DNA of 14,982 nucleotides. Origin: Desulfuromonas sp. SDB. Lineage in GTDB: Bacteria > SDB-A. This document shows positions 554-13,226 of the stretch, piece after piece. The DNA lies in contig LKUE01000206.1 of NCBI GenBank assembly GCA_001412365.1, positions 1-14,982 on the forward strand. The letters are read 5' to 3'. Made by a program: the position numbers and the translations under genes. Under the pieces are notes generated by a model. It saw only the letters and a list, made by a program, of their open reading frames with translations, was not told where the DNA came from and did not search any database. Within the stretch, counting starts at the first letter, position 1, and every line of letters starts with the position of its first letter.

Positions 554-910
554 ATGAAAATTAAAGAAATATTGGAACTGCTTCAATGTGGATGTCTGTC
601 TGAAAATTACGATAATGATAGTGATATCATTTATGTTTACGCTTCCGATCTGATGAGTGATATATTAGTGTTGCCCTGTCCGGGAGCTTTATTAGTTACT
701 GGTTTAGTAAATCATCAAGTAGTTAGAACGTCAAAAATTGCAGGAGTAAATGTAATCTTGTTTGTGAGAAATAAAAAACCAGAACCAGGAGTGATAGACC
801 TGTCAGTCAAATACAAAATACCAATTTTAACCACAAAGTTATCTATGTTTGAAGCTTGTGGCTTGCTTTATAATCATGGTTTGCGATCAGTTCATAGTAA
901 GAAAGATTAG
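554..910 (+). CDS. DRTGG-domain protein, first copy
   Basis: This 118-residue protein resembles the small stand-alone DRTGG-domain proteins found beside [FeFe]-hydrogenase genes. The domain name comes from a motif in larger proteins; that exact motif is not present here. Recognition rests on the overall pattern: a short N-terminal helix, a central alternating hydrophobic/glycine segment (ILVLPCPGALLVTGL), a conserved-looking ILFVRNKKPEPG stretch, and a C-terminal KIPILTTKLSMFEACG segment. The second copy at 2607-2963 shares the same ending (RNPEP, then IPLFKTELPAFE), so the two are clearly paralogous. No catalytic residues are apparent; the domain is usually considered a ligand-binding or regulatory module. 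It is cytoplasmic, with no signal peptide or membrane segment. A likely Shine-Dalgarno (AGGAA, 543-547) lies inside the end of the NuoE gene. Confidence 0.8.
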   Translation: MKIKEILELLQCGCLSENYDNDSDIIYVYASDLMSDILVLPCPGALLVTGLVNHQVVRTSKIAGVNVILFVRNKKPEPGVIDLSVKYKIPILTTKLSMFEACGLLYNHGLRSVHSKKD

Positions 911-923
911 TAAAATCGCCAAA

Positions 924-1352
924 ATGAAAGATATTATCTACAAACAGGAATTTAACATCCAGGGAGGGGACTTTATAAATGGAGGTGAAGCTTCCTGTAA
1001 GATAAGCACTATTTTAAAGGAAATAGGCATTGATCCAGAAGTAATATTAAGAGTGGCTGTTGCTTCTTATGAAGCTGAAATGAATGTGGTGATGTATGCT
1101 CAGCAAGGTACGATAATATTTATATTAACTCCTGTAAAACTGGTTTTACAAATTGAAGATATTGGACCGGGAATTGAAGATATTAACCGGGCTATGGTTC
1201 CTGGATTTTCCACTGCCACCGATGAAATGAGAGAAATGGGTTTTGGAGCAGGTATGGGTTTACCCAATATAAAAGAAAATTCAGATGTACTTAATATAGA
1301 TTCGGAAACGGGAAAAGGTACTAAATTGGAAATTATTATTAATTTGCCCTAA
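924..1352 (+). CDS. RsbW-like HATPase (anti-sigma/serine kinase type), first copy
   Basis: This 142-residue GHKL-type ATPase domain protein resembles RsbW/SpoIIAB anti-sigma factors and serine kinases. The N-box is visible as ASYEAEMN (about residues 48-55). The G1 box is EDIGPGIED (about 80-88) and the G2 box is the glycine-rich GFGAGMGLPNIKE (about 107-119). A GTKLEI strand closes the domain. There is no dimerisation/phosphoacceptor domain, so it is not a complete histidine kinase. I chose the ATG at 924 because it leaves a 13-nt gap after the DRTGG gene and gives a protein starting directly at the HATPase fold; the in-frame ATG at 849 would overlap the previous gene by 62 nt. No clear Shine-Dalgarno precedes 924, so translation may depend on coupling. 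Role inferred: ATP-dependent signal transducer in the HydS regulatory block. Confidence 0.83.
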   Translation: MKDIIYKQEFNIQGGDFINGGEASCKISTILKEIGIDPEVILRVAVASYEAEMNVVMYAQQGTIIFILTPVKLVLQIEDIGPGIEDINRAMVPGFSTATDEMREMGFGAGMGLPNIKENSDVLNIDSETGKGTKLEIIINLP

Positions 1353-1357
1353 AAATT

Positions 1358-2614
1358 ATGAATCATACTATCAAGGTAAACGAACAAAAATGCATTGGTT
1401 GTGTTACTTGTATGAAATCTTGCCCTACTAAAGCAATACGAATAATTAATAAAAAAGCTGTGATTATTGATGAAAGGTGCATAGATTGCGGCGAATGTTT
1501 CAGGGCATGTAAATATGACGCTATTGAGATCTTATCCACCGAGGAATCCACCTTGGAAAAATTCAAGTACAAGGTTGCCTTACCCTCGCCGGTTTTATAC
1601 TCCCAATTTGGTGAAAATGTACTGCCCGGAGAGGTTTTATGCATATTAAAGGAGATGGGATTTGATTCAGTGTATGATGAAGCAGTTATCTGTGAAATGA
1701 CTAGTATGGCGATCGAAGAATATCTTGATAAATACAGAGGTATTAAGCCGATTATTTCTTCCAGTTGTCCGGTTGTAGTACGTTTAATCCAGCGTTTGTT
1801 TCCTGGTTTATGCAAACAGATAATTCCAATTGAACCTCCTCGGGAAGTAGCTGCCAAGAATTTGCGGAGAGAAATATCTAAAAAGCATAATCTCCAACCC
1901 CAAGAAATTGGGATATTTCACATAACTCCCTGTTCCGCAAAAATATTATCCATTAATTATCCGGAGACCATGGGGAAATCCAATTTAGATGGAGCGGTTC
2001 CAATCAATAAAATATACAATAATTTGATGATGAAAATTAAAACCAATAAAAAACCGATCATGATACAGCATCACAGCAATGTTAGCGGGGTGGGGATATC
2101 CTGGACCATTCCAGGAAATGAAATTAGAAATTTAAAATTCCGTACAGTAGCGGTGTCCGGAGTAATTGATACAATTGAAATACTACAAGATGTTGAGTCC
2201 AATAAATTGAAGAATATTGACTATTTAGAATGTCTTATATGTCCTCATGGATGTTTAGGTGGTCCTTTAACTGTGGAGAACCGTTTTATTGCTAAAAGTA
2301 ACATGTTGCATCTAATTAGAATGTACGGCAAGAAGCGAACTGTAAATACCAATTTAGTACGAAAACTTTATCAGGAAAAATTTTTCTCCTTTGAGCATAA
2401 TGTGATTCCCAAGCCATTTCCTCCCCTTGATCCAAACACCACCCGGGCTCTGGAAAAGTTAAAGCAAAAAGAAAGTATAATGAATCAATTACCTGGATAT
2501 GATTGTGGAATGTGCGGATCTCCGGATTGTAAAACATTTGCTGAAGATGTAGTAAGGAATGATATTTTGATGGATAAATGCATGTTTTTACCCCAAGCAG
2601 GTGATTATGAGTAA
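1358..2614 (+). CDS. hydS: HydS-type (group D-like) [FeFe]-hydrogenase homologue, putative H2/redox sensor
   Basis: The protein has 418 residues. Two N-terminal [4Fe-4S] sites are formed by Cys12/15/18/22 and Cys41/44/47/51. The middle is an [Fe] hydrogenase large-subunit domain with three recognisable H-cluster loops: SSSCPVVVR (Cys137), TPCSAK (Cys192) and ECLICPHGCLGG (Cys295, Cys299). Thus all four presumed H-cluster cysteines are kept. The residue before Cys137, which is the proton-transfer Cys in prototypical hydrogenases, is Ser136. A C-terminal four-Cys motif (Cys383/386/391/408) looks like a further [4Fe-4S] site of the FeS (PF04060-like) type. Known family: putative sensory hydrogenases from Thermoanaerobacter and relatives, slow or impaired catalysts thought to signal. 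It lacks the PAS domain of group C sensors. It starts 5 nt after the HATPase gene, without a clear Shine-Dalgarno, and overlaps the next gene by 8 nt. No H-cluster maturase gene (hydE, hydF, hydG) lies in the window. Confidence 0.85.
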   Translation: MNHTIKVNEQKCIGCVTCMKSCPTKAIRIINKKAVIIDERCIDCGECFRACKYDAIEILSTEESTLEKFKYKVALPSPVLYSQFGENVLPGEVLCILKEMGFDSVYDEAVICEMTSMAIEEYLDKYRGIKPIISSSCPVVVRLIQRLFPGLCKQIIPIEPPREVAAKNLRREISKKHNLQPQEIGIFHITPCSAKILSINYPETMGKSNLDGAVPINKIYNNLMMKIKTNKKPIMIQHHSNVSGVGISWTIPGNEIRNLKFRTVAVSGVIDTIEILQDVESNKLKNIDYLECLICPHGCLGGPLTVENRFIAKSNMLHLIRMYGKKRTVNTNLVRKLYQEKFFSFEHNVIPKPFPPLDPNTTRALEKLKQKESIMNQLPGYDCGMCGSPDCKTFAEDVVRNDILMDKCMFLPQAGDYE

Positions 2615-2963
2615 AAAAATCATTTCATTGGAGCAGATAAAAACTTCGTTAAACCTGGAAGTACTCCAAGGAAACCAACTGGATAAAAAAAAGGTTAACA
2701 AAGGTTATGTAGGGGATGTACTCAGTAATGTTATTGCCCAAGCAAAACCTGGGGATATTTGGATTACTTGCCAGGGACATCCCAATATTGTTGCTGTAGC
2801 GGTGTTAAAAAAATTATCAGCAATTATAATTGTGGGAAAGAGAAATCCTGAACCAGCAACCGTACAAAAAGCAAAAACCGAAAATATTCCCCTGTTTAAA
2901 ACTGAACTTCCTGCCTTTGAAGTAGTGGGAAAAATTTATCAACAAGGAGTATTTGGAATCTAA
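2607..2963 (+). CDS. DRTGG-domain protein, second copy
   Basis: This 118-residue protein is paralogous to the product of 554-910. It carries the stronger DRTGG-like signature of the two: GYVGDVLSNVIAQAKPGDIW near the N-terminal third, then VGKRNPEP and a C-terminal IPLFKTELPAFEVVGKIY segment. There are no obvious catalytic residues. I placed the start at ATG 2607, which overlaps the HydS stop in an ATGAGTAA junction; a GTG at 2601 would add two residues. Having two DRTGG proteins flanking the HydS gene suggests that they form a heteromeric ligand-binding unit or two parallel branches of the same signalling system, but this is inference. Confidence 0.82.
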   Translation: MSKKIISLEQIKTSLNLEVLQGNQLDKKKVNKGYVGDVLSNVIAQAKPGDIWITCQGHPNIVAVAVLKKLSAIIIVGKRNPEPATVQKAKTENIPLFKTELPAFEVVGKIYQQGVFGI

Positions 2964-3702
2964 TGAAGTGAAAAAGTATCGTGCTGATTTACACATACAT
3001 AGTTGTCTTTCCCCCTGCGGAGATTTACTTATGTCACCCTTGAGGATTGTGGGAAAAGCAGTTCAACAGCACGTTGATATCATTGCTATCTGCGATCATA
3101 ATACCGCAGAAAATGTTTACGCTACGGTGAAATGCGCCCCTCCACAATTAAAAGTATTTCCGGGAATGGAAATTACCAGTATTGATGAAGTTCATATTCT
3201 AGCTCTATTTGAGAATATTGATGAGGTGATGGCTTTACAGAATATTGTTTACCAACATCTGTTGCCGGAAAAAAATGATGAATTAATATTTGGCGAACAG
3301 TTGATTGTTAATGAAAATGATGAAATTGAAGGGCATAATGACCGGTTTCTGATTGGCTATACCAGCTTAACCTTGAGTCAAATAATTTCTTCTATCCATG
3401 AGTTTAAGGGCATTGCCATTGCTTCACATGTGGATCGTGAACAATTTGGCATTATTAATCAGCTTGGTTTTATCCCCGAAGATCTGAAATTTGATGGTTT
3501 GGAAATATCCTACCGGATTACAAAATCTCAAGCAGTTATGCGATATCCTCAAATTTGCCAATATCCCTTGATCACATCTTCAGATGCTCATCATTTAGAT
3601 CACATCGGTCGAAGTACTATAGATCTGTTGATAGAAAAACCAGATATCCACGAATTTAAATGGGCTCTACAAAGAATTAAAGGCAGAAAGGTTATTTTTT
3701 AA
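2953..3702 (+). CDS. PHP-family metallo-phosphoesterase
   Basis: This 249-residue protein belongs to the polymerase-and-histidinol-phosphatase (PHP) family of metal-dependent phosphoesterases. Visible metal-site motifs, in order, are DLHIHS (His14, His16), CDHN (Asp48, His49), GMEIT (Glu73), VHIL (His81), SHVD (His159) and SDAHH (Asp211, His213). These include all expected motifs, so the enzyme should be active. Substrate is unknown; a phosphorylated protein or small signalling nucleotide is possible. The start is most likely TTG 2953, overlapping the DRTGG stop by 11 nt, with AAGGAG at 2944-2949 only 3 nt upstream. GTG 2968 is an alternative that removes five residues. Together with two HATPases it could form a kinase/phosphatase pair within the HydS regulatory block (inference). 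Confidence 0.87.
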   Translation: MESNEVKKYRADLHIHSCLSPCGDLLMSPLRIVGKAVQQHVDIIAICDHNTAENVYATVKCAPPQLKVFPGMEITSIDEVHILALFENIDEVMALQNIVYQHLLPEKNDELIFGEQLIVNENDEIEGHNDRFLIGYTSLTLSQIISSIHEFKGIAIASHVDREQFGIINQLGFIPEDLKFDGLEISYRITKSQAVMRYPQICQYPLITSSDAHHLDHIGRSTIDLLIEKPDIHEFKWALQRIKGRKVIF

Positions 3703-4253
3703 TGCAGGATTTATCTTTACATATACTGGATATTGTGGAGAATTCAATTAAAGCTAAGGCAACTCTGGTGCAAATTAGCATTACTGAAGATATCCCCCAT
3801 AATAAATTAATTATAGTTATAAAAGATAATGGTTCAGGGATTTCTGCAGAACAACCTTCTATGGTATTAGATCCTTTTTATAGTACAAAAAATTCCAGCC
3901 GTATCGGATTAGGTCTGCCTTTACTCCAGCAAGCTACTCAGGAAGCGGGGGGAGATTTAAAGATGCAGTCAGATAAGCATTCTGGAACTACCATTACTGC
4001 AAATTTCATTCGAGATCATATAGACCGAAAACCGTTGGGTAATGTTGGAGAGACTTTGATTGCTTTGATTGCATCTAAAGGAGAGGAGATGGATTTTGTT
4101 TATACACATCAAATTGGAGATCAAATTTTTGAATTTGATACCCGGGAAATTAAACTCCAGTTAGAAAATGTGACTATCAATAATCCGGAAATTATTAACT
4201 ATTTAAAAAAAGTAATATCAGATAATTTAACCAAAATGAATATCGGAAGGTAA
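3702..4253 (+). CDS. HATPase-domain protein, second copy (histidine-kinase-type ATPase)
   Basis: This 183-residue protein has a GHKL ATPase domain in its first ~105 residues. The N-box is DIVENSIKA (Asn14), the G1 box is KDNGSGI (Asp42, Gly44) and the G2 region is TKNSSRIGLGLPLL (Gly69, Gly71). GTTITANF closes the fold. The G2 region is of the GLGL histidine-kinase kind, unlike the RsbW-like first copy. The remaining ~75 residues form an additional C-terminal segment I cannot assign. There is no phosphoacceptor His domain and no sensor domain, so any kinase activity would need a partner. Its ATG overlaps the PHP stop by one nucleotide (TAATG), with AAAGG at 3687-3691 as the probable ribosome-binding site. 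Confidence 0.85.
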   Translation: MQDLSLHILDIVENSIKAKATLVQISITEDIPHNKLIIVIKDNGSGISAEQPSMVLDPFYSTKNSSRIGLGLPLLQQATQEAGGDLKMQSDKHSGTTITANFIRDHIDRKPLGNVGETLIALIASKGEEMDFVYTHQIGDQIFEFDTREIKLQLENVTINNPEIINYLKKVISDNLTKMNIGR

Positions 4254-4260
4254 GGTACTA

Positions 4261-4644
4261 ATGAAAAAATTAAAGGTAGGGGATTTAAAAAAAATTAGGG
4301 ATAAAGTGCAAAAAACTACAAATTTGAGGAAAAGCCAATCAAGGGCGGTGATTACCGTTCATATGGGTACCTGTGGCATAGCCGCAGGATCTAGGCAAAT
4401 ATTGACAAGAATTATGGCTATTTTAGAAAAGAAAAAAATTGATGATGTTTTGGTTACTACATCAGGTTGTGCTGGGTTTTGCAGTCGTGAACCCATGATT
4501 ACCGTTGAAGTCAAGGGAGAACCACCGGTGAAATACGGTGATTTAACTGAACAGAGAATTGATAAGATAATATCGCAACACATTATTCAAGGAAATCTAG
4601 TGAAGGAATTTGTTTTAGCCCTGGGCAGTGAAAGAACTTACTAA
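4261..4644 (+). CDS. Small thioredoxin-like (2Fe-2S) ferredoxin-domain protein
   Basis: This 127-residue protein resembles the N-terminal thioredoxin-like ferredoxin domain of HydB/NuoF-type subunits and the small stand-alone version encoded just upstream of hydB in many hyd loci. Only three cysteines are present: Cys38 (in HMGTCGIAAG), Cys70 and Cys74 (SGCAGFC). A canonical domain has four, with C-x4-C in the first loop; here the first position is apparently occupied by His34 or another residue. It may bind a [2Fe-2S] cluster with a non-Cys fourth ligand, or have lost it. As I recall, related proteins share the three-Cys arrangement, so this is probably a subfamily trait rather than damage. 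AAGG at 4252-4255 precedes the ATG with normal spacing. It starts 7 nt after the HATPase gene, and a 53-nt gap follows it. Confidence 0.82.
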   Translation: MKKLKVGDLKKIRDKVQKTTNLRKSQSRAVITVHMGTCGIAAGSRQILTRIMAILEKKKIDDVLVTTSGCAGFCSREPMITVEVKGEPPVKYGDLTEQRIDKIISQHIIQGNLVKEFVLALGSERTY

Positions 4645-4697: not shown

Positions 4698-6518
4698 TTG
4701 GAACACCGGCTTCATTTACTAGTGTGTGCTGGAACTGGTTGTGTGGCAAACCGATCTTTCCAGATTAAACAAAAGTTAGAGCAGGAAATAATCAAAAACG
4801 GTCTCCAGGATGAGGTGAAGGTGATATCAACAGGATGTCAGGGTTTTTGTGAAAGAGGTCCGGTAGTTATTGTTAAACCGGGAGATATCTTTTATCAGCA
4901 AGTTAAGGAAACAGATATTCCCTTGTTGGTAGAAGAACATCTGTTGAAGGGAAGACCAGTTAAAAAGTTGATGTATAAACCTTCGGGAAAAGAACCGCCG
5001 GTACAGAAGATGATGGATATTGGATTTTTCAAGCATCAAAGGTTGATTGTGCTGAAAAATCGGGGACGCCTTGATCCTGAAAATATTGATGAATATATTG
5101 GATTTGACGGTTATCTGGCTATGGAAAAAGCATTGGCTACAATGACTCCGGAGCAGATCATTGAAGAAATTAAGAAATCCGGATTAAGGGGGAGAGGAGG
5201 AGCAGGCTTCCCCACTGGATTGAAGTGGGAATTCTGTCGTAAAGCCAAAGGTAATCTTAAATATCTGGTATGTAATGCAGATGAAGGAGATCCGGGAGCT
5301 TTTATGGATCGCAGTATTTTAGAATCTGATCCTCATCTGGTTCTAGAAGGGATAATTATCGGAGCCATTGCCATTGGAGCAAGTAAAGGATTTATCTATG
5401 TTAGAAGCGAATATCCATTGGCGGTCAAAAGAGTAAAAATTGCCATTGAGCAAGCCCAGGACTACGGTTTGCTGGGAGATAATATACTGGGAACTGATTT
5501 CAGTTTTTCTCTGGATGTAATTCAGGGAGCAGGTGCTTTTGTATGCGGAGAAGAAACTGCATTAATTGCCTCTATCCAAGGACAAGTGGGAAGACCCCGC
5601 CCCCGCCCCCCTTATCCCGCTGAAAGTGGATTATGGGGAAATCCCACCAATATAAACAATGTGGAAACTTGGGCAAATATTCCAGGCATTATTCAAAAAG
5701 GTTCCCAGTGGTATTCTTCCATTGGCACTGAAAACAGCAAAGGAACAAAAATCTTTTCCCTGGTAGGGAAGATAAATAATACTGGATTGGTGGAAGTGCC
5801 CATGGGCATTACCTTGAGAGAGATAATTTATGAAATTGGAGGGGGTATTCCCAATAAAAAAGAATTTAAAGCAGTTCAAACCGGAGGACCTTCCGGGGGA
5901 TGTTTGCCTAAACAGATGCTTGATTTGTCCATAGATTACGATAGTTTAACTAAAGCAGGATCTATCATGGGGTCAGGGGGGATGATTGTCATGGATGAAG
6001 ACACCTGCATGGTTGATTTAGCTAAATACTTCTTGAAATTTACGGTAGAAGAATCATGTGGCAAATGCACTCCCTGCAGAGTAGGAACCAGAAATATGGT
6101 GGATATTCTGGAAAAAATATGCAGCGGACAAGCTACTCTTGATGATTTAGATAAGCTGGAATTTTTGGCTAAAACAGTTAAATCAACTGCATTATGCGGA
6201 TTAGGGCAAACTGCTCCTAATCCGGTGCTAACCACTTTAAGATACTTCCGAGATGAATATATTTCTCATATTGTGGATAAATACTGTCCGGCATTGGTTT
6301 GCAGAGATCTAATTGAATTCTATGTGATCCCGGAAAAATGTACTGGCTGTCAACGATGTGTAAGTGTTTGCCCTACCGGAGCAATAACCGGACCAAGATC
6401 CCAACCCCATAATTTAGATAAAGATAAATGCATTAAATGCAGGGCTTGTTATGAAATTTGCCGCTTTGATGCCATTGCCGGAGATGCGATTAGAATAAAA
6501 TCAGGGGAGGAAGCATGA
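4698..6518 (+). CDS. nuoF: HydB/NuoF-like flavoprotein: FMN/NADH subunit of the bifurcating core
   Basis: This 606-residue subunit has the full HydB layout. An N-terminal thioredoxin-like [2Fe-2S] domain (Cys10, Cys15, Cys47, Cys51) comes first. Next is the NuoF core, with the FMN/NADH signature GRGGAGFPTG at 165-174 and the [4Fe-4S] motif ESCGKCTPC (Cys454/457/460) plus Cys500. The C-terminal ferredoxin domain has two [4Fe-4S] sites (Cys548/551/554/558 and Cys578/581/584/588). Complex I NuoF lacks the two terminal domains, so this is the soluble bifurcating type (HydB, StnB-like). Expected role: oxidise or reduce NAD(H) at FMN and exchange electrons with ferredoxin. His524, Cys530 and Cys535 precede the C-terminal domain and might form the zinc site reported in HydB structures. 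The start is TTG 4698, supported by AAGGAGA at 4686-4692; no in-frame ATG lies nearby upstream. It overlaps the next gene by 4 nt (ATGA). Confidence 0.95.
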   Translation: MEHRLHLLVCAGTGCVANRSFQIKQKLEQEIIKNGLQDEVKVISTGCQGFCERGPVVIVKPGDIFYQQVKETDIPLLVEEHLLKGRPVKKLMYKPSGKEPPVQKMMDIGFFKHQRLIVLKNRGRLDPENIDEYIGFDGYLAMEKALATMTPEQIIEEIKKSGLRGRGGAGFPTGLKWEFCRKAKGNLKYLVCNADEGDPGAFMDRSILESDPHLVLEGIIIGAIAIGASKGFIYVRSEYPLAVKRVKIAIEQAQDYGLLGDNILGTDFSFSLDVIQGAGAFVCGEETALIASIQGQVGRPRPRPPYPAESGLWGNPTNINNVETWANIPGIIQKGSQWYSSIGTENSKGTKIFSLVGKINNTGLVEVPMGITLREIIYEIGGGIPNKKEFKAVQTGGPSGGCLPKQMLDLSIDYDSLTKAGSIMGSGGMIVMDEDTCMVDLAKYFLKFTVEESCGKCTPCRVGTRNMVDILEKICSGQATLDDLDKLEFLAKTVKSTALCGLGQTAPNPVLTTLRYFRDEYISHIVDKYCPALVCRDLIEFYVIPEKCTGCQRCVSVCPTGAITGPRSQPHNLDKDKCIKCRACYEICRFDAIAGDAIRIKSGEEA

Positions 6519-8836
6519 ACATCACCATTGATCAACAGGAAATTGATGTACCTGATAATATAACTATATTGGAAGCTGCCCAGCTTAATGACATCTACAT
6601 TCCTAACCTGTGTTATCATCCCCAACTGACTCCCTATGGAGGATGCCGTTTATGTATTGTTGAAGTCGAAGGATTGAGGGGATATCCCACCGCCTGTACT
6701 ACCAAAGTAAAAGAAAGAATGAAAATTAAAACAAAATCAAAAACTCTTAACGATATGAGAAAAGAAATCCTTCAGTTAATTTTAAGTGATCATCCTTCCG
6801 GTTGCTTACTTTGTGATGAACAGGAAGAATGCTCATCCAATCAGGTCACTATTCGAAAGGTGGGAGCTACTACCGGCTGCCGTTGGTGCCCCAATGATCA
6901 GGATTGTGAACTGCAGAAGATAGTTGAATATTTGGAAATTAAACAGATTATCTTTCCGGTTTACTATCAGGGATTCCCGGTTGAAACTGAAGATCCCTTC
7001 TTTGATCGCGATTACAATTTATGCATCTACTGCGGGCGGTGTGTGAGAATATGTCAGGAGCACCGCAAGAGCGAAGTAATAACCATGAACCAAAGGGGGA
7101 AACTTACTACAATTGGTCCTCCTTATGATTTAACCCATATTGAGGGAGGCTGTGAATTTTGCGGTGCTTGTGTTTCTATTTGTCCTACCGGAGCCAATTT
7201 TGAAAAAAGCCGGAAATGGGCAGGACCACCGGATTCCTATGAACCGTCATTTTGCCCTTTGTGCAATCTGAACTGTGATCTGCAGGTCTTGGTTAAAAAA
7301 AATAAAATTATCGGGACTCTACCCCCTGGTGATCCTCATCTTTCCGGAGGTGATTTATGTGTAAAGGGGAGATTTTGTATAAATGAATTGATAAATTATA
7401 CTCAGCGGGAGATGACTCCCAAATTAAAGCGCAACTATGGTTATCAGTTAATGTCCTGGGAGAAGTCTATTTCAGAGGTTAGAGACATATTGAAAAATCT
7501 TGATGGAGAAAAAATTGCTATTTACCTCTCTCCCGAACTTTCCCTGGAAGAATTAACTGCAGTAAAAATTTTTAGCTCAGAAGTAATTCACTGTTCAAAC
7601 CTAACTTCGTCAATTATTAATAACAGCTTAATTAAACTTGTCCAATTGTCCACCATGAATATTCCAGTCAAGGATATTGAAAAAGCAGACTGTATAATAT
7701 CCATATTTCTAAATGGGAATTATAATTATGCCCCGGTTACCCTTGCTGTTAAAAGGGCAGCAGAACGAGGAGTTCCCTATTATCAAATTGGCTGGTTCAA
7801 CGACACTACCAGCAGATTCACCGAAAGGCAAATCATCCTTAAACCGGGCAAAGAGAAGTCTTGGTTTAAAAAGATAGTTAATCATGTGGATAAAGGAGGA
7901 TCAGCTTCAAACGAGATCCAGGAGTTGATCAGAGTGATTAAAGTATCTCCCAGTCCGGTAATTATTTTAGGTCATCAGTTTATTGATTTATCCGAAGGGG
8001 TGGAGATGTTGAAGTTGATCAAACGGTTTATCGAACTGACCGGAGCGAAAATTTATGTATCCCTGCCTTACGGGAATCTACTGGGGTTATTAGGGGTTTT
8101 AAAGATCAGGCACAGTGTGGATGTTGAAAAATTATGGGAACAAAATGAAATTGAAGTTATCTACAGTTTTGGAGATTTGCCTTTTTCTAAAAGACCCCCG
8201 GTGAAATATATTATCCACCAGAGCAGCTATCCTCCATCCGGAGATATTAAACCGGATATAATTTTTCCCACACCAACCTGGGGTGAAACTGACGCCTGTT
8301 ATGTTGATGATCAATTGATCATCAAAAAATTTAAAAAGGTGGTCAATCCTCCTGAAAATCTATGGTCCTGTTTAGATATATTAGGGAAATTAGCCCAGGA
8401 AATGGGAAAAGACAGCGGTAAATTCAAATCAACTGAGATAATGAAATCATTTCCTGAACAAATCAAATTAAATCTGCCTGATTTGAAAAAAGTGAAAAAA
8501 GAAAAAATATACTCACCTGATTCTGACTATCCCTACCTATTAATTGAAGAGGTAACTAAGAACCGGTTTTTAAATATATCAATAAATAAAACCAGTGAAG
8601 GATTTGATATGATCTTACCTCAGCAGGTGCTCATAATAAATCCGAATGATGCTGAAAAACTCGGTTTAACTGATTATCAAACGGTAATTGTAAAATCCAG
8701 AAATAGCAGCAAAGTTTATCCTTTAAAAATTAGAACAATTATTCAACCCGGCTTTATATACCTTATCACTGATGAAGAAAAACCAGTGTTTGAAACGAAT
8801 CCATGTCCAGTACATATTAGGAGGCAAAATGTTTGA
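6515..8836 (+). CDS. nuoG: NuoG-like iron-sulfur subunit with degenerate molybdopterin-oxidoreductase domain
   Basis: This 773-residue protein begins with a [2Fe-2S] domain (Cys33/44/47/61). A Cys/His-rich stretch follows with His93, Cys97/100/106 and Cys122/125/131, longer than the single H-x3-C-x2-C-x5-C motif of ordinary NuoG. Two [4Fe-4S] sites come next (Cys170/173/176/180 and Cys213/216/219/223). A formate-dehydrogenase-like [4Fe-4S] site (Cys247/250/254 and Cys282 in the GGDLCVKGRF context) leads into a molybdopterin-oxidoreductase-like region. At the position of the catalytic Cys/Sec (D-H-C-A-R-L-C/U in formate dehydrogenases) the sequence reads HCSNLTSS, giving Thr364. A molydop-binding-like C-terminal domain occupies about 700-770. 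I infer an electron-wiring scaffold as in complex I NuoG, not a formate dehydrogenase. It replaces the HydA subunit of a hyd operon. The ribosome-binding site is GGGGAGG at 6504-6510. Its end overlaps nfnA by 8 nt. Confidence 0.9.
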   Translation: MNITIDQQEIDVPDNITILEAAQLNDIYIPNLCYHPQLTPYGGCRLCIVEVEGLRGYPTACTTKVKERMKIKTKSKTLNDMRKEILQLILSDHPSGCLLCDEQEECSSNQVTIRKVGATTGCRWCPNDQDCELQKIVEYLEIKQIIFPVYYQGFPVETEDPFFDRDYNLCIYCGRCVRICQEHRKSEVITMNQRGKLTTIGPPYDLTHIEGGCEFCGACVSICPTGANFEKSRKWAGPPDSYEPSFCPLCNLNCDLQVLVKKNKIIGTLPPGDPHLSGGDLCVKGRFCINELINYTQREMTPKLKRNYGYQLMSWEKSISEVRDILKNLDGEKIAIYLSPELSLEELTAVKIFSSEVIHCSNLTSSIINNSLIKLVQLSTMNIPVKDIEKADCIISIFLNGNYNYAPVTLAVKRAAERGVPYYQIGWFNDTTSRFTERQIILKPGKEKSWFKKIVNHVDKGGSASNEIQELIRVIKVSPSPVIILGHQFIDLSEGVEMLKLIKRFIELTGAKIYVSLPYGNLLGLLGVLKIRHSVDVEKLWEQNEIEVIYSFGDLPFSKRPPVKYIIHQSSYPPSGDIKPDIIFPTPTWGETDACYVDDQLIIKKFKKVVNPPENLWSCLDILGKLAQEMGKDSGKFKSTEIMKSFPEQIKLNLPDLKKVKKEKIYSPDSDYPYLLIEEVTKNRFLNISINKTSEGFDMILPQQVLIINPNDAEKLGLTDYQTVIVKSRNSSKVYPLKIRTIIQPGFIYLITDEEKPVFETNPCPVHIRRQNV
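8819..8824 (+). promoter_or_regulatory. Shine-Dalgarno deciding the nfnA start
   Basis: A perfect AGGAGG lies 4 nt upstream of ATG 8829. It selects 8829 over the in-frame ATG at 8772, which lies deep inside the preceding gene and would add 19 residues absent from the usual NfnA N-terminus. Confidence 0.8.
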
Positions 8837-9665
8837 GGTTATCCAAAAAGAGATGATTGTTCCCAATCTTCATCTCCTCACCATTAAAGCTCCTGAAGTG
8901 GCATCTCAAATTGAACCAGGTCAATTTGTAATTGTCAGATCTCACCAGGATGCGGAAAGAATCCCCTTATCCGTGGCGGATTGGGATCGGGAGCAGGGAA
9001 CAGTGACCATGATATTTATGGTGGTGGGAAAATCTACCGCTCGGTTAGCCAGATTAAATAACGGTGATAATATCCCCACCTTGGTAGGTCCGTTGGGAAA
9101 GCCGACAGTTATTGAAAATTTTGGTACAGTGATGTGTATCGGGGGATGCTATGGAATTGGTTCTATTTATCCGGTAATCAGGAAGTTGAAAGAAAAAGGG
9201 AATGAAATAATTACAGTGGTTGAAGCTCGCAGCAGTTATTTACTTTACTGGTTGGATAAGTTAGGCAAATTGAGCAAAAAGATTAAAATAATTACCCGTG
9301 ACGGAAGCTTCGGGATCAAAGGTCATATAAATTGCTTAACTGAAATAATGGAGAAAGAAAAAATAACACCGGATCGTATTATTGTAAATGGATGTACATA
9401 TCTCCTCTCTAAAAGCTCCGCTGACCTGAGGTCATTAAATGTGCCCATTGTGGTCAGTTTGAATCCGATTATGATTGATGGGACCGGAATGTGCGGAGTA
9501 TGCAGAGTTACTGTAGATGGCAATACTAAATTTGCCTGTGTGGATGGACCTGATTTTGACGGAAGATTAGTGGATTGGACTGAATTATTTCAACGCAGAA
9601 AGCAATATATGAATGAAGAAGCCCAGCTGGTGCACAGTTCAGGATGTGGAGGTGGTCATGAGTAA
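8829..9665 (+). CDS. nfnA: NfnA-like ferredoxin-NADP reductase alpha subunit (FAD, [2Fe-2S])
   Basis: This 278-residue protein belongs to the NfnA/PyrK-type FNR-like family. An N-terminal FAD-binding barrel carries the signature ERIPLSVADWD (43-53), followed by VGPLGKPT (86-93). The nucleotide-binding loop reads CIGGCYGIGSIYP (103-115). This differs from the usual GGGVGIAPVYP form, so NAD affinity may be altered. The C-terminal iron-sulfur motif is DGTGMCGVC with a later FACVDGPDFDG: Asp217, Cys222, Cys225, Cys237. In Thermotoga NfnA the [2Fe-2S] cluster is held by one Asp and three Cys, and this protein shows the same set. Length is normal. The gene overlaps the NuoG-like gene (ATGTTTGA) and the NfnB-like gene (ATGAGTAA) by 8 nt each, which implies translational coupling and complex formation. 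Alternative name: sulfide dehydrogenase beta subunit-like. Confidence 0.9.
   Translation: MFEVIQKEMIVPNLHLLTIKAPEVASQIEPGQFVIVRSHQDAERIPLSVADWDREQGTVTMIFMVVGKSTARLARLNNGDNIPTLVGPLGKPTVIENFGTVMCIGGCYGIGSIYPVIRKLKEKGNEIITVVEARSSYLLYWLDKLGKLSKKIKIITRDGSFGIKGHINCLTEIMEKEKITPDRIIVNGCTYLLSKSSADLRSLNVPIVVSLNPIMIDGTGMCGVCRVTVDGNTKFACVDGPDFDGRLVDWTELFQRRKQYMNEEAQLVHSSGCGGGHE
9648..9653 (+). promoter_or_regulatory. Shine-Dalgarno deciding the nfnB start
   Basis: GGAGGT lies 4 nt upstream of ATG 9658, within the last codons of nfnA. It favours 9658 over the in-frame ATG at 9613, which lacks such a site and would add 15 residues not typical of the family. Confidence 0.75.
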
Positions 9666-11049
9666 GCTGGATCTAAATCGCAGAGAAATGCCCAAACAGT
9701 CTCCTGAAATCAGGAAAAGTAATTTTAATGAAGTTGCCTTTGGCTATACCAAGGAATTAGCAGTAGCTGAAGCAAGCAGATGTTTACAGTGTAAGAAACC
9801 GAGATGTGTGGAAGGATGTCCGGTAGATATTAACATACCTGGATTTATAAAATGTATTGTGAATTCAGAATTCACCGGAGCAATTAGAGTGATCAAAGAA
9901 AAGAACTGCCTTCCTGCAGTATGCGGAAGGGTATGCCCCCAGGAAGAACAATGTGAAAGTAAATGCGTTTTACTGAAGCAGGGTGCTCCTATTGCCATTG
10001 GAAGACTGGAAAGATTTGCTGCGGAAATGGAAGTAGCCAGGGAGAAATTTGAATTGCCTGAAAAAAATCCTCCCACTGGAAAAAAAGTGGCAGTTATTGG
10101 GTCAGGACCGGCGGGAATTACGGTAGCCGGGGATTTAATTATGCTGGGGCATGAAGTAACAATATTTGAGGCACTGCATGCAGCAGGCGGGGTGTTAACA
10201 TACGGTATCCCTGAATTCCGTCTTCCCAAGAAAGTGGTCAACAGGGAAATGGAGTATATTCAGAGACTGGGAGTAAAACTGATTACAAATTTTGTAGTGG
10301 GAAAAACCAGATCACTGCAAACTTTATTAAAGCAATATGATGCGGTATTTGTGGGAACTGGAGCAGGATTGCCCTGGTTTATGAACATAGCCGGAGAAAA
10401 TTACAACGGATGTTATTCAGCCAATGAATTTCTGACCAGGATGAATTTGATGAAAGGATATCAATTCCCCAATTCATTTACTCCCATTATCCGCCATAAG
10501 AAGATCGCCATTATCGGGGGAGGAAATGTGGCTATGGATTGTGCCAGAACTGCATTGAGATTAGGAGCTAAAGAATCCTATATAGTATATCGGCGGTCAG
10601 AAGCTGAACTACCCGCCAGATTGGAAGAATATGAAAATGCAGTGGAAGAAGGTGTTATATTTCACTTCCTGACTTTACCGGTTAAGTTAACTGCCGACCA
10701 GTCTGGCTGGGTTAAAGAAATGGAATGTTTAAAAATGAAACTGGGAGAGCCGGATGCCAGCGGCAGGAGAAGACCAATCCCCATTGATAATTCAAATTTC
10801 ACCATGCCCATTGACGGATATGTAGTAGCTATAGGCAATAGTCCCAATCCCCTTATCCCCAGCACTACTCCGGAGTTGGAAGTTAGCAAAAAAGGAACAA
10901 TAGTGGCAGATTTGGAGACTGGCAAAACTTCAATGGACCGGGTATGGGCGGGAGGAGATATAGTCACCGGAGCGGCAACAGTTATTTTGGCTATGGGGGC
11001 GGGGAAAAAAGCAGCCCGGTCAATGCATGAATATTTGATGAAAAACTAA
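9658..11049 (+). CDS. nfnB: NfnB/GltD-like NADPH-binding subunit with two [4Fe-4S] sites and FAD
   Basis: The 463-residue protein matches NfnB and the glutamate synthase small subunit (GltD). The N-terminal cluster domain carries Cys42/45/50/54 and Cys89/93/99/103. The latter are in the family motif AVCGRVCPQE, followed by GRLERF (Glu118, the region of the unusual Glu cluster ligand in NfnB). The FAD-binding dinucleotide fold starts at GSGPAG (148-153), with the GltD signature TYGIPEFRLPK (181-191). A second dinucleotide fold begins at GGGNVAMD and is followed by YRRSEAELPARLEE, whose arginines fit NADP(H) binding. The C-terminal AGGDIVTGAATVI segment contacts FAD. All expected motifs are intact. 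No gltB-type glutamate synthase large subunit is present, so a redox role with NfnA and/or the NuoEFG-like proteins is more likely than glutamate synthesis. This is the last gene of the tightly coupled cluster. Confidence 0.92.
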   Translation: MSKLDLNRREMPKQSPEIRKSNFNEVAFGYTKELAVAEASRCLQCKKPRCVEGCPVDINIPGFIKCIVNSEFTGAIRVIKEKNCLPAVCGRVCPQEEQCESKCVLLKQGAPIAIGRLERFAAEMEVAREKFELPEKNPPTGKKVAVIGSGPAGITVAGDLIMLGHEVTIFEALHAAGGVLTYGIPEFRLPKKVVNREMEYIQRLGVKLITNFVVGKTRSLQTLLKQYDAVFVGTGAGLPWFMNIAGENYNGCYSANEFLTRMNLMKGYQFPNSFTPIIRHKKIAIIGGGNVAMDCARTALRLGAKESYIVYRRSEAELPARLEEYENAVEEGVIFHFLTLPVKLTADQSGWVKEMECLKMKLGEPDASGRRRPIPIDNSNFTMPIDGYVVAIGNSPNPLIPSTTPELEVSKKGTIVADLETGKTSMDRVWAGGDIVTGAATVILAMGAGKKAARSMHEYLMKN

Positions 11050-11115
11050 TTATTTTGTATAGTAAGTAAACTTTATGTTAGACCTTCATGTTCAAATTAG
11101 ATTGAGGAGAAATAA

Positions 11116-12369
11116 ATGCTGGATGCCCAAGAAGTTTTATCTGAGCTTAATTTTGAAAGATTAGCCGGTTCTCCCGGAGAGAAAAAAGCATTGGAATTAA
11201 TTGGTGGTTATTTAAAAAAATTACACCTTGAATATCAACTGGAACCTTTTCAGTTAAACAGTTTTGATACCGGACATGCTCAGATTAAACTGGGCGAAAA
11301 AGTTTATCCGGCTCATCCGTTTGGATTAACTCAAGCCACTAATGTTCAGGGTGATTTAATTTTCTTGGAAAATGCCAAGGTTATATTTCATAACCGTTCT
11401 GCCTACCCTGGAAAAATAATTATTTCAAAAAACTATTCCCGGAAATATCAGCAATATCTTGTAGCCGGGGAGGTAAAAGCTTTTATATTGATTGGTAAAC
11501 CATTCCGGGAAGCCCACAGCATTTCCGTAAGGCAGAAGAAGTTTGCAGAGGGTTTTGTCCCGGCAGTAGTTGTTGATTATGATGTCGGTGCAGAATTGTC
11601 CAAATTCAGCGGACAGTCAGTTACCCTTCACATAAACCAGCATGCTGAAAAGAGAACTGCCCATAATTTAGTAGTTAATATAAGCGGGAAAAAAACAGAT
11701 GAGAACCTGATTATAAGCTGTGCCCACTATGATACCGTTGCCAGGTCCCCAGGCATCACTGATAACGGAGGGGGTGTTGTTGCCCTGCTTAAAATTGCTG
11801 AATATTTTTCCAATCATCCTCCTTCCAGGGATCTAAGATTAGTTTGGTTTTCCGGAGAGGAGTTGGGTCTTCTGGGTAGTTATGATTATGTACAAAAACA
11901 TCTAGCTGAAATAAAAAATAGATTGATGATGGTTTTAAATATAGATGTAGCCGGAGATGATTTGGGAGTAAATGAAATGGTGGTAATGGGTACCCGGGAA
12001 TTACTGGGTTACGTTTCAGGCATAGCCAGGGAAAAAGGAGTTTATTTTAATGCCGGCTTGAATATATACAGTTCAGATGGAGTGCCTTTTTCCGTTTATG
12101 AAATTCCTTCGGTAAATCTGGGAAGATATGGAGGTAAAAACTCTTTTCGCATTCACACTTCCGGAGATAATCCAGAGTATATTTCCTCTAGGGGTTTGGA
12201 GCCCATCATCAGTTCAGCTGTTAACATCTTAAACCGTTGTTTAAATGCTGAAGTATTTCCATTTGTTCCTGAAATTGATGCAGAATTAAAAGAAAAATTG
12301 GAAAAATATCTTTGGCAATCCACTTTTAATCCTCCCCATTTGCACTGGACTCCCCATTATAAGAAATGA
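11116..12369 (+). CDS. M28-family zinc metallopeptidase (aminopeptidase-like), cytoplasmic
   Basis: This 417-residue protein has the complete co-catalytic dizinc site of family M28: His204 (CAHYD), bridging Asp216 (ITDNGGG), catalytic Glu248 with ligand Glu249 (WFSGEELG), Asp277 (LNIDVAGDD) and His347 (RIHTSGD). Residues ~75-175 form an insertion resembling a protease-associated (PA) domain, placed between an N-terminal helical segment and the catalytic fold. There is no signal peptide or membrane segment, so it probably acts in the cytoplasm on peptides. The ATG is preceded by GAGGAGA (11104-11110) at good spacing. It follows the nfnB-like gene after 66 nt with no visible terminator, so read-through from the redox operon is possible, but no functional connection is apparent. 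Substrate specificity cannot be read from the sequence. Confidence 0.9.
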   Translation: MLDAQEVLSELNFERLAGSPGEKKALELIGGYLKKLHLEYQLEPFQLNSFDTGHAQIKLGEKVYPAHPFGLTQATNVQGDLIFLENAKVIFHNRSAYPGKIIISKNYSRKYQQYLVAGEVKAFILIGKPFREAHSISVRQKKFAEGFVPAVVVDYDVGAELSKFSGQSVTLHINQHAEKRTAHNLVVNISGKKTDENLIISCAHYDTVARSPGITDNGGGVVALLKIAEYFSNHPPSRDLRLVWFSGEELGLLGSYDYVQKHLAEIKNRLMMVLNIDVAGDDLGVNEMVVMGTRELLGYVSGIAREKGVYFNAGLNIYSSDGVPFSVYEIPSVNLGRYGGKNSFRIHTSGDNPEYISSRGLEPIISSAVNILNRCLNAEVFPFVPEIDAELKEKLEKYLWQSTFNPPHLHWTPHYKK

Positions 12370-12470
12370 ATTTAATTTTTAATTTTTCTTTTAATAATTT
12401 TTTAATACTGCTTTGTTAAAGTTATTATGAGAAAATTATTTTATTAAATTATATTTAACTGGGAGGTATT
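12370..12470. other. AT-rich intergenic spacer upstream of the slipin gene
   Basis: This 101-nt spacer is the second-longest gene-free stretch in the window after the 3' tail. It is extremely AT-rich, with runs of T and A. I see no GC-rich hairpin that would make a convincing intrinsic terminator. A promoter for the slipin gene may lie here, but no hexamer pair with proper spacing stands out. GGGAGGT at 12461-12467 is the ribosome-binding site of the slipin gene. Confidence 0.5.
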
Positions 12471-13226
12471 ATGCCCTGTCTAATTGCCATAGTAGTTATT
12501 CCTTCAGTGTTTTTATTCTTTTACCTGTTAAGATGCATCCGGGTTCTCTATCAATATGAACGGGGGGTGGTATTTACTCTGGGGAGGTTTACCGGATTGA
12601 GAAATCCCGGAATTACCTGGGTATTTCCCATATTTCAGAAGATGAGAAAAGTTGACATGAGGATAAAAACAGTGGATGTACCCCGTCAGGAAGTGATAAC
12701 CAAAGATAATGTTCCCATCCTGGCTAATACCGTGGTCTATTTTAAAGTAAAAAATCCTGTAGATGTGATCATTGAAATTGAAGACTACATCTTTGCCGTG
12801 CGCCAGTATACCCAAGCTGCGCTAAGAGATATCGTAGGTAATAGTGAGCTGGATTTTGTATTAACTGAAAGAGAAAAAGTAGCGGACAGCATCAAAGAAA
12901 TTGTGGATGCGGAGACGGATAACTGGGGAGTGGATATTGAAGCAATTAAAATTCAGGAAATCGAACTACCCGCGGAGATGAAAAGAGCAATGGCGAAGCA
13001 GGCAGAAGCGGAAAGGGAAAGGAGAGCGATGATAATTGCCTCCCACGGGGAATTAAAAGCTTCTGAAAATTTAATGCTGGCTGCTGTAAATCTTTCTAAA
13101 AATACTGCTGCACTTCATATTAGAACTTTACAGACCATCAGGGATATTGCCGCCGATCCGTCTGAAAAAATTGTCCTGTTTTTGCCCTCTGATTTAGGAG
13201 ATATTATTAAAAAATTAAAAGCATAA
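12471..13226 (+). CDS. Slipin/stomatin-like SPFH-domain membrane protein
   Basis: This 251-residue prokaryotic slipin has an N-terminal hydrophobic segment (residues ~3-20) that anchors it in the membrane. It is followed by the SPFH/Band 7 domain (~25-190). Typical elements are YERGVVFTLGRF, the PGITWVFPIF segment, VDVPRQEVITKDNV, and the helical LTEREKVADSIKEIVDAETDNWGVDIEAIKIQEIELP region. These are followed by an Ala/Glu/Arg-rich helix and an oligomerisation tail. Length matches the family. Slipins form ring-like membrane microdomain scaffolds and are often encoded next to an NfeD-type protease partner; no NfeD gene is present here. The ATG has a strong Shine-Dalgarno at 12461-12467. It begins 101 nt after the peptidase gene and is probably a separate or loosely linked unit. 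Confidence 0.92.
   Translation: MPCLIAIVVIPSVFLFFYLLRCIRVLYQYERGVVFTLGRFTGLRNPGITWVFPIFQKMRKVDMRIKTVDVPRQEVITKDNVPILANTVVYFKVKNPVDVIIEIEDYIFAVRQYTQAALRDIVGNSELDFVLTEREKVADSIKEIVDAETDNWGVDIEAIKIQEIELPAEMKRAMAKQAEAERERRAMIIASHGELKASENLMLAAVNLSKNTAALHIRTLQTIRDIAADPSEKIVLFLPSDLGDIIKKLKA

Follow-up and report, generated by a model that had tools for sequence, protein, structure and literature searches.

Electron-bifurcating cores of the HydBC/StnAB type bifurcate between NAD(H) and ferredoxin and are fed via a NuoG-type subunit (PMC9304861, PMC10482914). In the Sporomusa ovata transhydrogenase StnABC a GltD module is inserted in StnC, and Stn has no NfnA homologue (PMC10482914). The NfnAB enzymes of Thermotoga maritima and Pyrococcus furiosus (NfnI) instead consist of NfnA and a separate NfnB; a second P. 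furiosus enzyme, NfnII (Xfn, 5vj7), has lost NAD+ activity and possibly uses another acceptor (PMC6405883, PMC8097209). We analysed contig LKUE01000206.1 (C206) of Desulfuromonas sp. SDB (assembly of 3.14 Mb in 433 contigs), the entire 14,982 nucleotides of which are called the window here. It encodes NuoE-, HydB/NuoF-, NuoG-, NfnA- and NfnB-like subunits, whose identities are far above chance by Pfam and NCBIfam profiles. We consider it probable that the five form one soluble complex, in which NuoG and a repurposed NfnA connect a BfuBC core with NfnB. The basis for this is gene content, universal linkage within a clade, natural fusion, motif loss and co-inheritance.

The five-gene set recurs in many genomes. 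Within a first sample of 145 genomes, contiguous nuoE-nuoF-nuoG-nfnA-nfnB was found in four further families, and a fifth had the same regulatory genes too, with nfnB off the contig. When about 85,000 genomes of different species were scanned, 80 loci (L numbers below) were obtained and annotated; most relatives are metagenome assemblies. In the NuoG tree the window falls into one monophyletic clade of 26 loci (Shimodaira–Hasegawa-like approximate likelihood ratio test, 99) that spans at least 10 phylum-level lineages. Its hosts include Cloacimonadota, Bacteroidales, Zixibacteria, Planctomycetota, Hydrogenedentes, Coatesbacteria, WOR-3, TA06, one deltaproteobacterium and two Thorarchaeota. Directly downstream of nuoG lies nfnA in 24 of the 24 clade loci whose contig extends there (in the other two, L055 and L061, it ends within or just after nuoG), and nfnB follows in 23 of these, the contig of the remaining one ending first. 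An NfnA profile search of a second sample, of 386 genomes, found the altered NfnA described below in 14, seven of them new relative to the earlier loci; nuoEFG adjoins it in 14/14, and nfnB wherever the contig extends. Because the linkage is kept far beyond the Desulfuromonas sp. SDB genome, it is not a chance neighbourhood. An earlier reading of the window (the original prediction) had proposed a five-subunit NAD(H)/NADP(H)/ferredoxin enzyme and a search of genomes for the same genes. With 24/24 and 14/14, nfnAB is not routinely unlinked from nuoEFG, and the proposed enzyme is supported as the best reading.

Subunit fusion is a classic indicator of physical association. NuoG and NfnA are encoded as one open reading frame in L074 (Hydrogenedentes; 10001-12559, 852 residues), L235 (830 residues) and L236 (848 residues), and these natural fusions single out NuoG and NfnA as a contacting pair. 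Tree-distance correlations over 28 loci were 0.92 for NfnA-NuoG, 0.85 for NfnA-NfnB, 0.82 for NuoG-NfnB and 0.56 for NuoG-HydB; NfnA thus tracks NuoG more closely than NuoG tracks its known partner HydB. Fusions of other subunits were also seen: L236 additionally has a NuoE-HydB fusion (9313-11736, 807 residues), and L197 a NuoG-NuoE fusion (5702-8041, 779 residues).

In a first comparison, of 25 linked with 28 standalone NfnA sequences, the near-fixed differences coincided precisely with the three motifs by which the ferredoxin–NADP+ reductase (FNR)-type fold binds NAD(P). Cys107, Glu132 and Cys189 (NfnA numbered from the ATG at 8829, NfnB from that at 9658) replace residues of GGGxG, GxR and GPxxMM, respectively (Table 1), and are accompanied by Trp52 and mostly by His166. 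The sole linked exception, L064, lies outside the main NuoG clade. When the comparison was extended to 69 loci, all 32 linked NfnA of the altered type, which lie beside NuoEFG, had Cys107 and Cys189, and all 32 standalone sequences had the canonical residues; both Cys were missing in five linked NfnA of other lineages (L064, L065, L076, L105 and L237). A branch supported at 99/92 still set the altered NfnA apart after the diagnostic columns had been taken out of the alignment. The change therefore goes back to one old event, and the counts above are not independent trials. The rest of the protein is conserved: the FAD motif ERxPxT/S is kept as ERIPLS, as is the [2Fe-2S] motif DGTGMCGxC...C. 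An AlphaFold2 model of NfnA (mean predicted local distance difference test score 87.9) kept the NfnA fold, with 5jca_S as best match (Z 36.9, root-mean-square deviation 2.5 over 273 residues). The three altered positions presumably converge around the nicotinamide pocket beside the flavin, as is general for the FNR fold. From the loss of all three canonical motifs we infer that NfnA of the five-gene sets does not bind NAD(H); the subunit is derived, with a remodelled NAD(H) site, and is not the retained NfnA that had been supposed.

NuoEFG is linked to NfnAB in other forms as well. A second lineage, L064, L065 and L237 (Chloroflexota), has canonical NAD(H) motifs in NfnA, and L076, a Methanosarcinales archaeon, has odd NfnA motifs and nfnAB upstream of nuoG.

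NfnB handles NADP(H). In the mechanism that we propose, NuoE and NuoF would make up a HydBC/BfuBC-type electron-bifurcating core, joined by the NuoG-type BfuA to an NfnAB module. NuoF would provide the sole site for NAD(H), its FMN, and, in its C-terminal clusters, the site for ferredoxin; electrons would pass from the NuoG clusters through NfnA (FAD and [2Fe-2S]) to the FAD of NfnB, the subunit at which NADP(H) would react. No longer an NAD(H) oxidoreductase, NfnA would be the electron link to NuoG through its rebuilt pocket, which could be a contact or a new redox centre. The net reaction would be a reversible transhydrogenation of NADH plus reduced ferredoxin with NADP+, like those of Nfn and Stn. 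NfnB may still bifurcate, because the high-potential [2Fe-2S] cluster, with its Asp ligand, is conserved, and so are the two clusters of NfnB. Two bifurcating flavin sites may be active, since NfnB keeps every cluster ligand and the arginine at the bifurcating FAD (b-FAD). If the same electrons were bifurcated twice in full series, the thermodynamic margin would seem narrow; a mode with one site as a relay is therefore equally likely. More tentatively, the NfnA pocket might hold a new redox centre (metal, Fe-S or dithiol, formed by Cys107, Cys189 and Glu132) that wires the BfuBC FMN/Fe-S site to the b-FAD site of NfnB; such an enzyme would have two ferredoxin sites and could set NADPH/NADP+ at a steeper ratio than Nfn and Stn do.

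Several points weigh against this proposal. An AlphaFold2 model of a natural NuoG-NfnA fusion had a predicted template modelling score of 0.50 and no confident relative placement, although cofactor-rich domains modelled without their cofactors make a poor test. Tight linkage and congruence could also be explained by an obligate co-transferred operon without physical contact. L064, L065 and L237 join NuoEFG to a canonical NfnA that presumably binds NAD, so linkage alone is no proof of lost NAD binding. Finally, the case for a single complex is built from sequence-based evidence, from which both the physical association and the direction of electron flow are inferred.

Two independent enzymes might instead share the operon: a Bfu-type NuoEFG that has another third substrate, and a transhydrogenase made up of NfnAB. 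Elsewhere NfnAB forms a complete enzyme, the alignment of linked with standalone NfnB revealed no fixed difference, and NfnB trees mix five-gene and standalone rows, though a single clade of linked NfnB was not rejected (approximately unbiased test, p 0.073). We nevertheless regard this arrangement as unlikely in view of the three NuoG-NfnA fusions, the universal linkage within the clade, the restriction of the NfnA change to linked sets and a NuoG without a catalytic module of its own.

We give similarly little credence to the idea that NfnA was repurposed for another substrate, its FAD and a Cys107/Cys189 dithiol reducing a disulfide or other carrier while the complex couples NADH, NADPH and ferredoxin. 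Judging from general knowledge of FNR-fold enzymes, the two Cys do replace motif residues that line the nicotinamide pocket by the flavin, and P. furiosus NfnII, whose NfnA also has a degraded NAD(H) site, is a precedent for lost NAD+ activity (PMC6405883, PMC8097209). It differs, however, in having GAYTG and GP in place of a Cys pair, and no linkage to NuoEFG is described for it in the literature examined. The fusions and the correlation of 0.92 indicate NuoG as the partner of NfnA instead, and no extra substrate-specific gene was seen in all annotated loci.

Comparison of NfnB bears on the relation to Stn. The best structure match of the window's NfnB was the bifurcating T. maritima NfnB (4ylf_B, E 1.5e-168), against E 1.2e-82 for S. 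ovata StnC (8oh5_C). The original prediction had called for an NfnB tree to decide between StnC and bifurcating NfnB; the protein grouped with bifurcating NfnB, and a 100/100 branch separates it from the GltD domains of StnC and other fusions. Across 23 rows the cluster Cys positions are kept (with a rare swap at Cys89 only), as are the motif Glu and the b-FAD arginine R188. The same genome also carries two fused-StnC operons (L044 and L045, on C301 and C386) and a canonical NfnAB (L043, on C37) whose 601-residue NfnB has a 135-residue N-terminal extension; together with the window operon these make four predicted transhydrogenases in one organism. A Stn transhydrogenase with StnC encoded in pieces, as first suggested, would contain the same module types (NuoE, NuoF, NuoG and a GltD-like NADP(H) subunit) but is highly improbable given the NfnB branch and match values, the lack of an NfnA homologue in Stn (PMC10482914) and the two true StnABC operons elsewhere in the genome. 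Nor does the five-gene set have the appearance of an evolutionary intermediate linking Nfn with Stn, an idea that found no phylogenetic support.

We then placed the subunits among described families. By the domain definitions of the Bfu family (PMC9304861), HydB/NuoF has the BfuB set IPR011538/019554/019575/017896 (PF01512, PF10531, PF10589 and Fer4), NuoE has the BfuC domain IPR002023 (PF01257), and NuoG combines Fer2 with Fer4 as BfuA does; a coupled NAD(H)/ferredoxin/third-substrate activity, which defines this family, is predicted for the set. The set shares with Stn and with Nfn-Bfu (Thermococcus sibiricus Nfn-BfuABC) the BfuBC core, a NuoG-type subunit with a dead FdhF-like domain and a GltD/NfnB-type NADP(H) flavoprotein. 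It differs from them in a separate, bifurcating-type NfnB outside the StnC lineage in place of a GltD insert (its 773-residue NuoG has no GltD), in the presence of an altered NfnA and in a CxxCx5C motif of NuoG. With the NfnAB enzymes it has in common the two [4Fe-4S] sites and b-FAD arginine of NfnB and the FAD and Asp/Cys3 [2Fe-2S] cluster of NfnA; it differs in that NfnAB is always linked to, and sometimes fused with, NuoEFG and that the NfnA NAD(H) motifs now read Cys/Glu/Cys. The BfuABC core is also that of A. mobile NiFe-HydABCSL (Type 3 Bfu) and the HydABC hydrogenases, and the best PDB matches of the window's HydB were A. mobile NiFe-HydB (7t2r_B, E 4e-266), the closest, and HydB 7q4v_B. 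Unlike these enzymes, the set lacks a hydrogenase subunit, its NuoG carries no H-cluster, and its third-substrate module is NfnAB. No description of an NfnAB-linked Bfu complex was found in the searchable literature (the Bfu classification, the Hydrogenedentota Bfu paper and Nfn reviews), a search that covered main texts and not supplementary tables; the Bfu survey left 17 clades unassigned, so the five-gene set may have been noticed there earlier.

NuoG, with an FdhF-like [4Fe-4S] site and a C-terminal half of degenerate molybdopterin fold, resembles BfuA/FDH-type subunits. The additional CxxCx5C follows the usual HxxxCxxCx5C in every five-gene NuoG of the main clade. We considered it as a marker of NfnAB linkage and rejected it: it is also present in NuoG proteins of Chloroflexi that have GltD fusions, and in loci of SAR202/Dehalococcoidia that lack NfnAB, and is therefore a clade trait and not proof of an NfnB port. 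Other domain combinations were met among the loci. L083, L084 and L085 (Chloroflexota) encode fusions of 737-771 residues between an N-terminal part of NuoG and an NfnB/GltD domain, a shorter relative of StnC. A HydB/NuoF of about 1014-1050 residues with a C-terminal GltD-like domain is encoded in L068 (943-4062), L070 (6790-9909), L071 (6943-9987), L122 (13229-16357) and L235 (9566-12718); the bifurcating subunit of L068, L070 and L235, loci that also have separate NfnA and NfnB, contains in it a second domain of NADP(H) or FAD type.

Table 1. Genes and diagnostic residues of the operon in the window
Feature	Position	Strand	Remarks
NuoE/HydC/BfuC-like [2Fe-2S] subunit, 161 residues; C75, C80, C116, C120	65..550	+	PF01257, E 4.8e-53
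NuoF/HydB/BfuB-like, TTG start: thioredoxin-like N-domain, FMN/NAD(H) 51K, SLBB, NADH_4Fe-4S, two C-terminal [4Fe-4S]	4698..6518	+	
NuoG/BfuA-like, 773 residues: [2Fe-2S], H93-C97-C100-C106, additional C122-C125-C131, two ferredoxin-type [4Fe-4S]	6515..8836	+	
NfnA-like, 278 residues: FAD domain and [2Fe-2S] ligands D217, C222, C225, C237 kept, NAD(H) site remodelled	8829..9665	+	
NfnA Cys107, in place of third Gly of GGGxG pyrophosphate loop	9147..9149	+	
NfnA Glu132, in place of Gly in GxR motif	9222..9224	+	
NfnA Cys189, in place of Pro of GPxxMM motif	9393..9395	+	
NfnB-like, 463 residues: two [4Fe-4S] sites, FAD with R188 (= P. furiosus R201), NADP-binding YRR	9658..11049	+	
Group C-like [FeFe]-hydrogenase homologue, probable H2 sensor, HydS-like	1358..2614	+	Fe_hyd_lg_C, E 1.7e-26
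Regulatory cassette, part 1: DRTGG-like protein (554-910), HATPase (924-1352)	554..1352	+	Recurs beside related sets
Regulatory cassette, part 2: second DRTGG-like, PHP phosphoesterase, HATPase, thioredoxin-like [2Fe-2S] protein	2601..4644	+	Recurs in L039, L066

Every gene between 65 and 11049 lies on the + strand, in the order nuoE, DRTGG, HATPase, group C-like [FeFe]-hydrogenase homologue, DRTGG, PHP, HATPase, thioredoxin-like [2Fe-2S], hydB/nuoF, nuoG, nfnA and nfnB. The four last genes are consecutive and overlap by 4 (hydB/nuoG), 8 (nuoG/nfnA) and 8 (nfnA/nfnB) nucleotides, and nuoE opens the run, both as originally described; seven genes separate nuoE from hydB. The statement that no HydA with an H-cluster is present held in part. 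There is no group A HydA, and a Pfam search of NuoG found no H-cluster domain and no Fe_hyd_lg_C; the same gene run does, however, include the group C-like homologue, its only H-cluster-type gene. This product has all four usual H-cluster Cys motifs, and the HydF maturase is encoded in the same genome. From its sequence it looks like a sensor-type hydrogenase rather than HydA.

The cassette of HydS-like, HATPase, DRTGG, PHP and thioredoxin-like genes (554-4644) is placed between nuoE and nuoF. Whole or in part, it is found next to 10 further five-gene sets (with HydS, HATPase and DRTGG present in L039, L051, L053, L054, L057, L066, L067 and L230-L232), and HydS, HATPase, DRTGG and PHP also accompany some other HydB operons. 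The cassette may make the operon H2- or redox-responsive.

In the window's family the operon is present in one of four genomes and absent from the three others. This patchy presence points to lateral acquisition, which is the likely origin of the operon in this genome. Contamination was considered as the source of the contig; its GC content of 0.385 is in line with that of the genome's other contigs (0.37-0.46). No close match turned up when a plasmid-borne relative of NfnA was sought (best 43%).

The five-gene set would be a widespread third arrangement that holds both the Bfu and the Nfn machinery, with one subunit altered in a way consistent with their electrical connection, in agreement with the further diversity predicted for the HydBC family (PMC9304861, PMC10482914). 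It offers a natural experiment on the consequences of replacing an NAD(H) site, and allows a test of whether two bifurcation sites can operate in series. It also predicts routes of NADPH supply in many uncultured anaerobes, Asgard archaea included.

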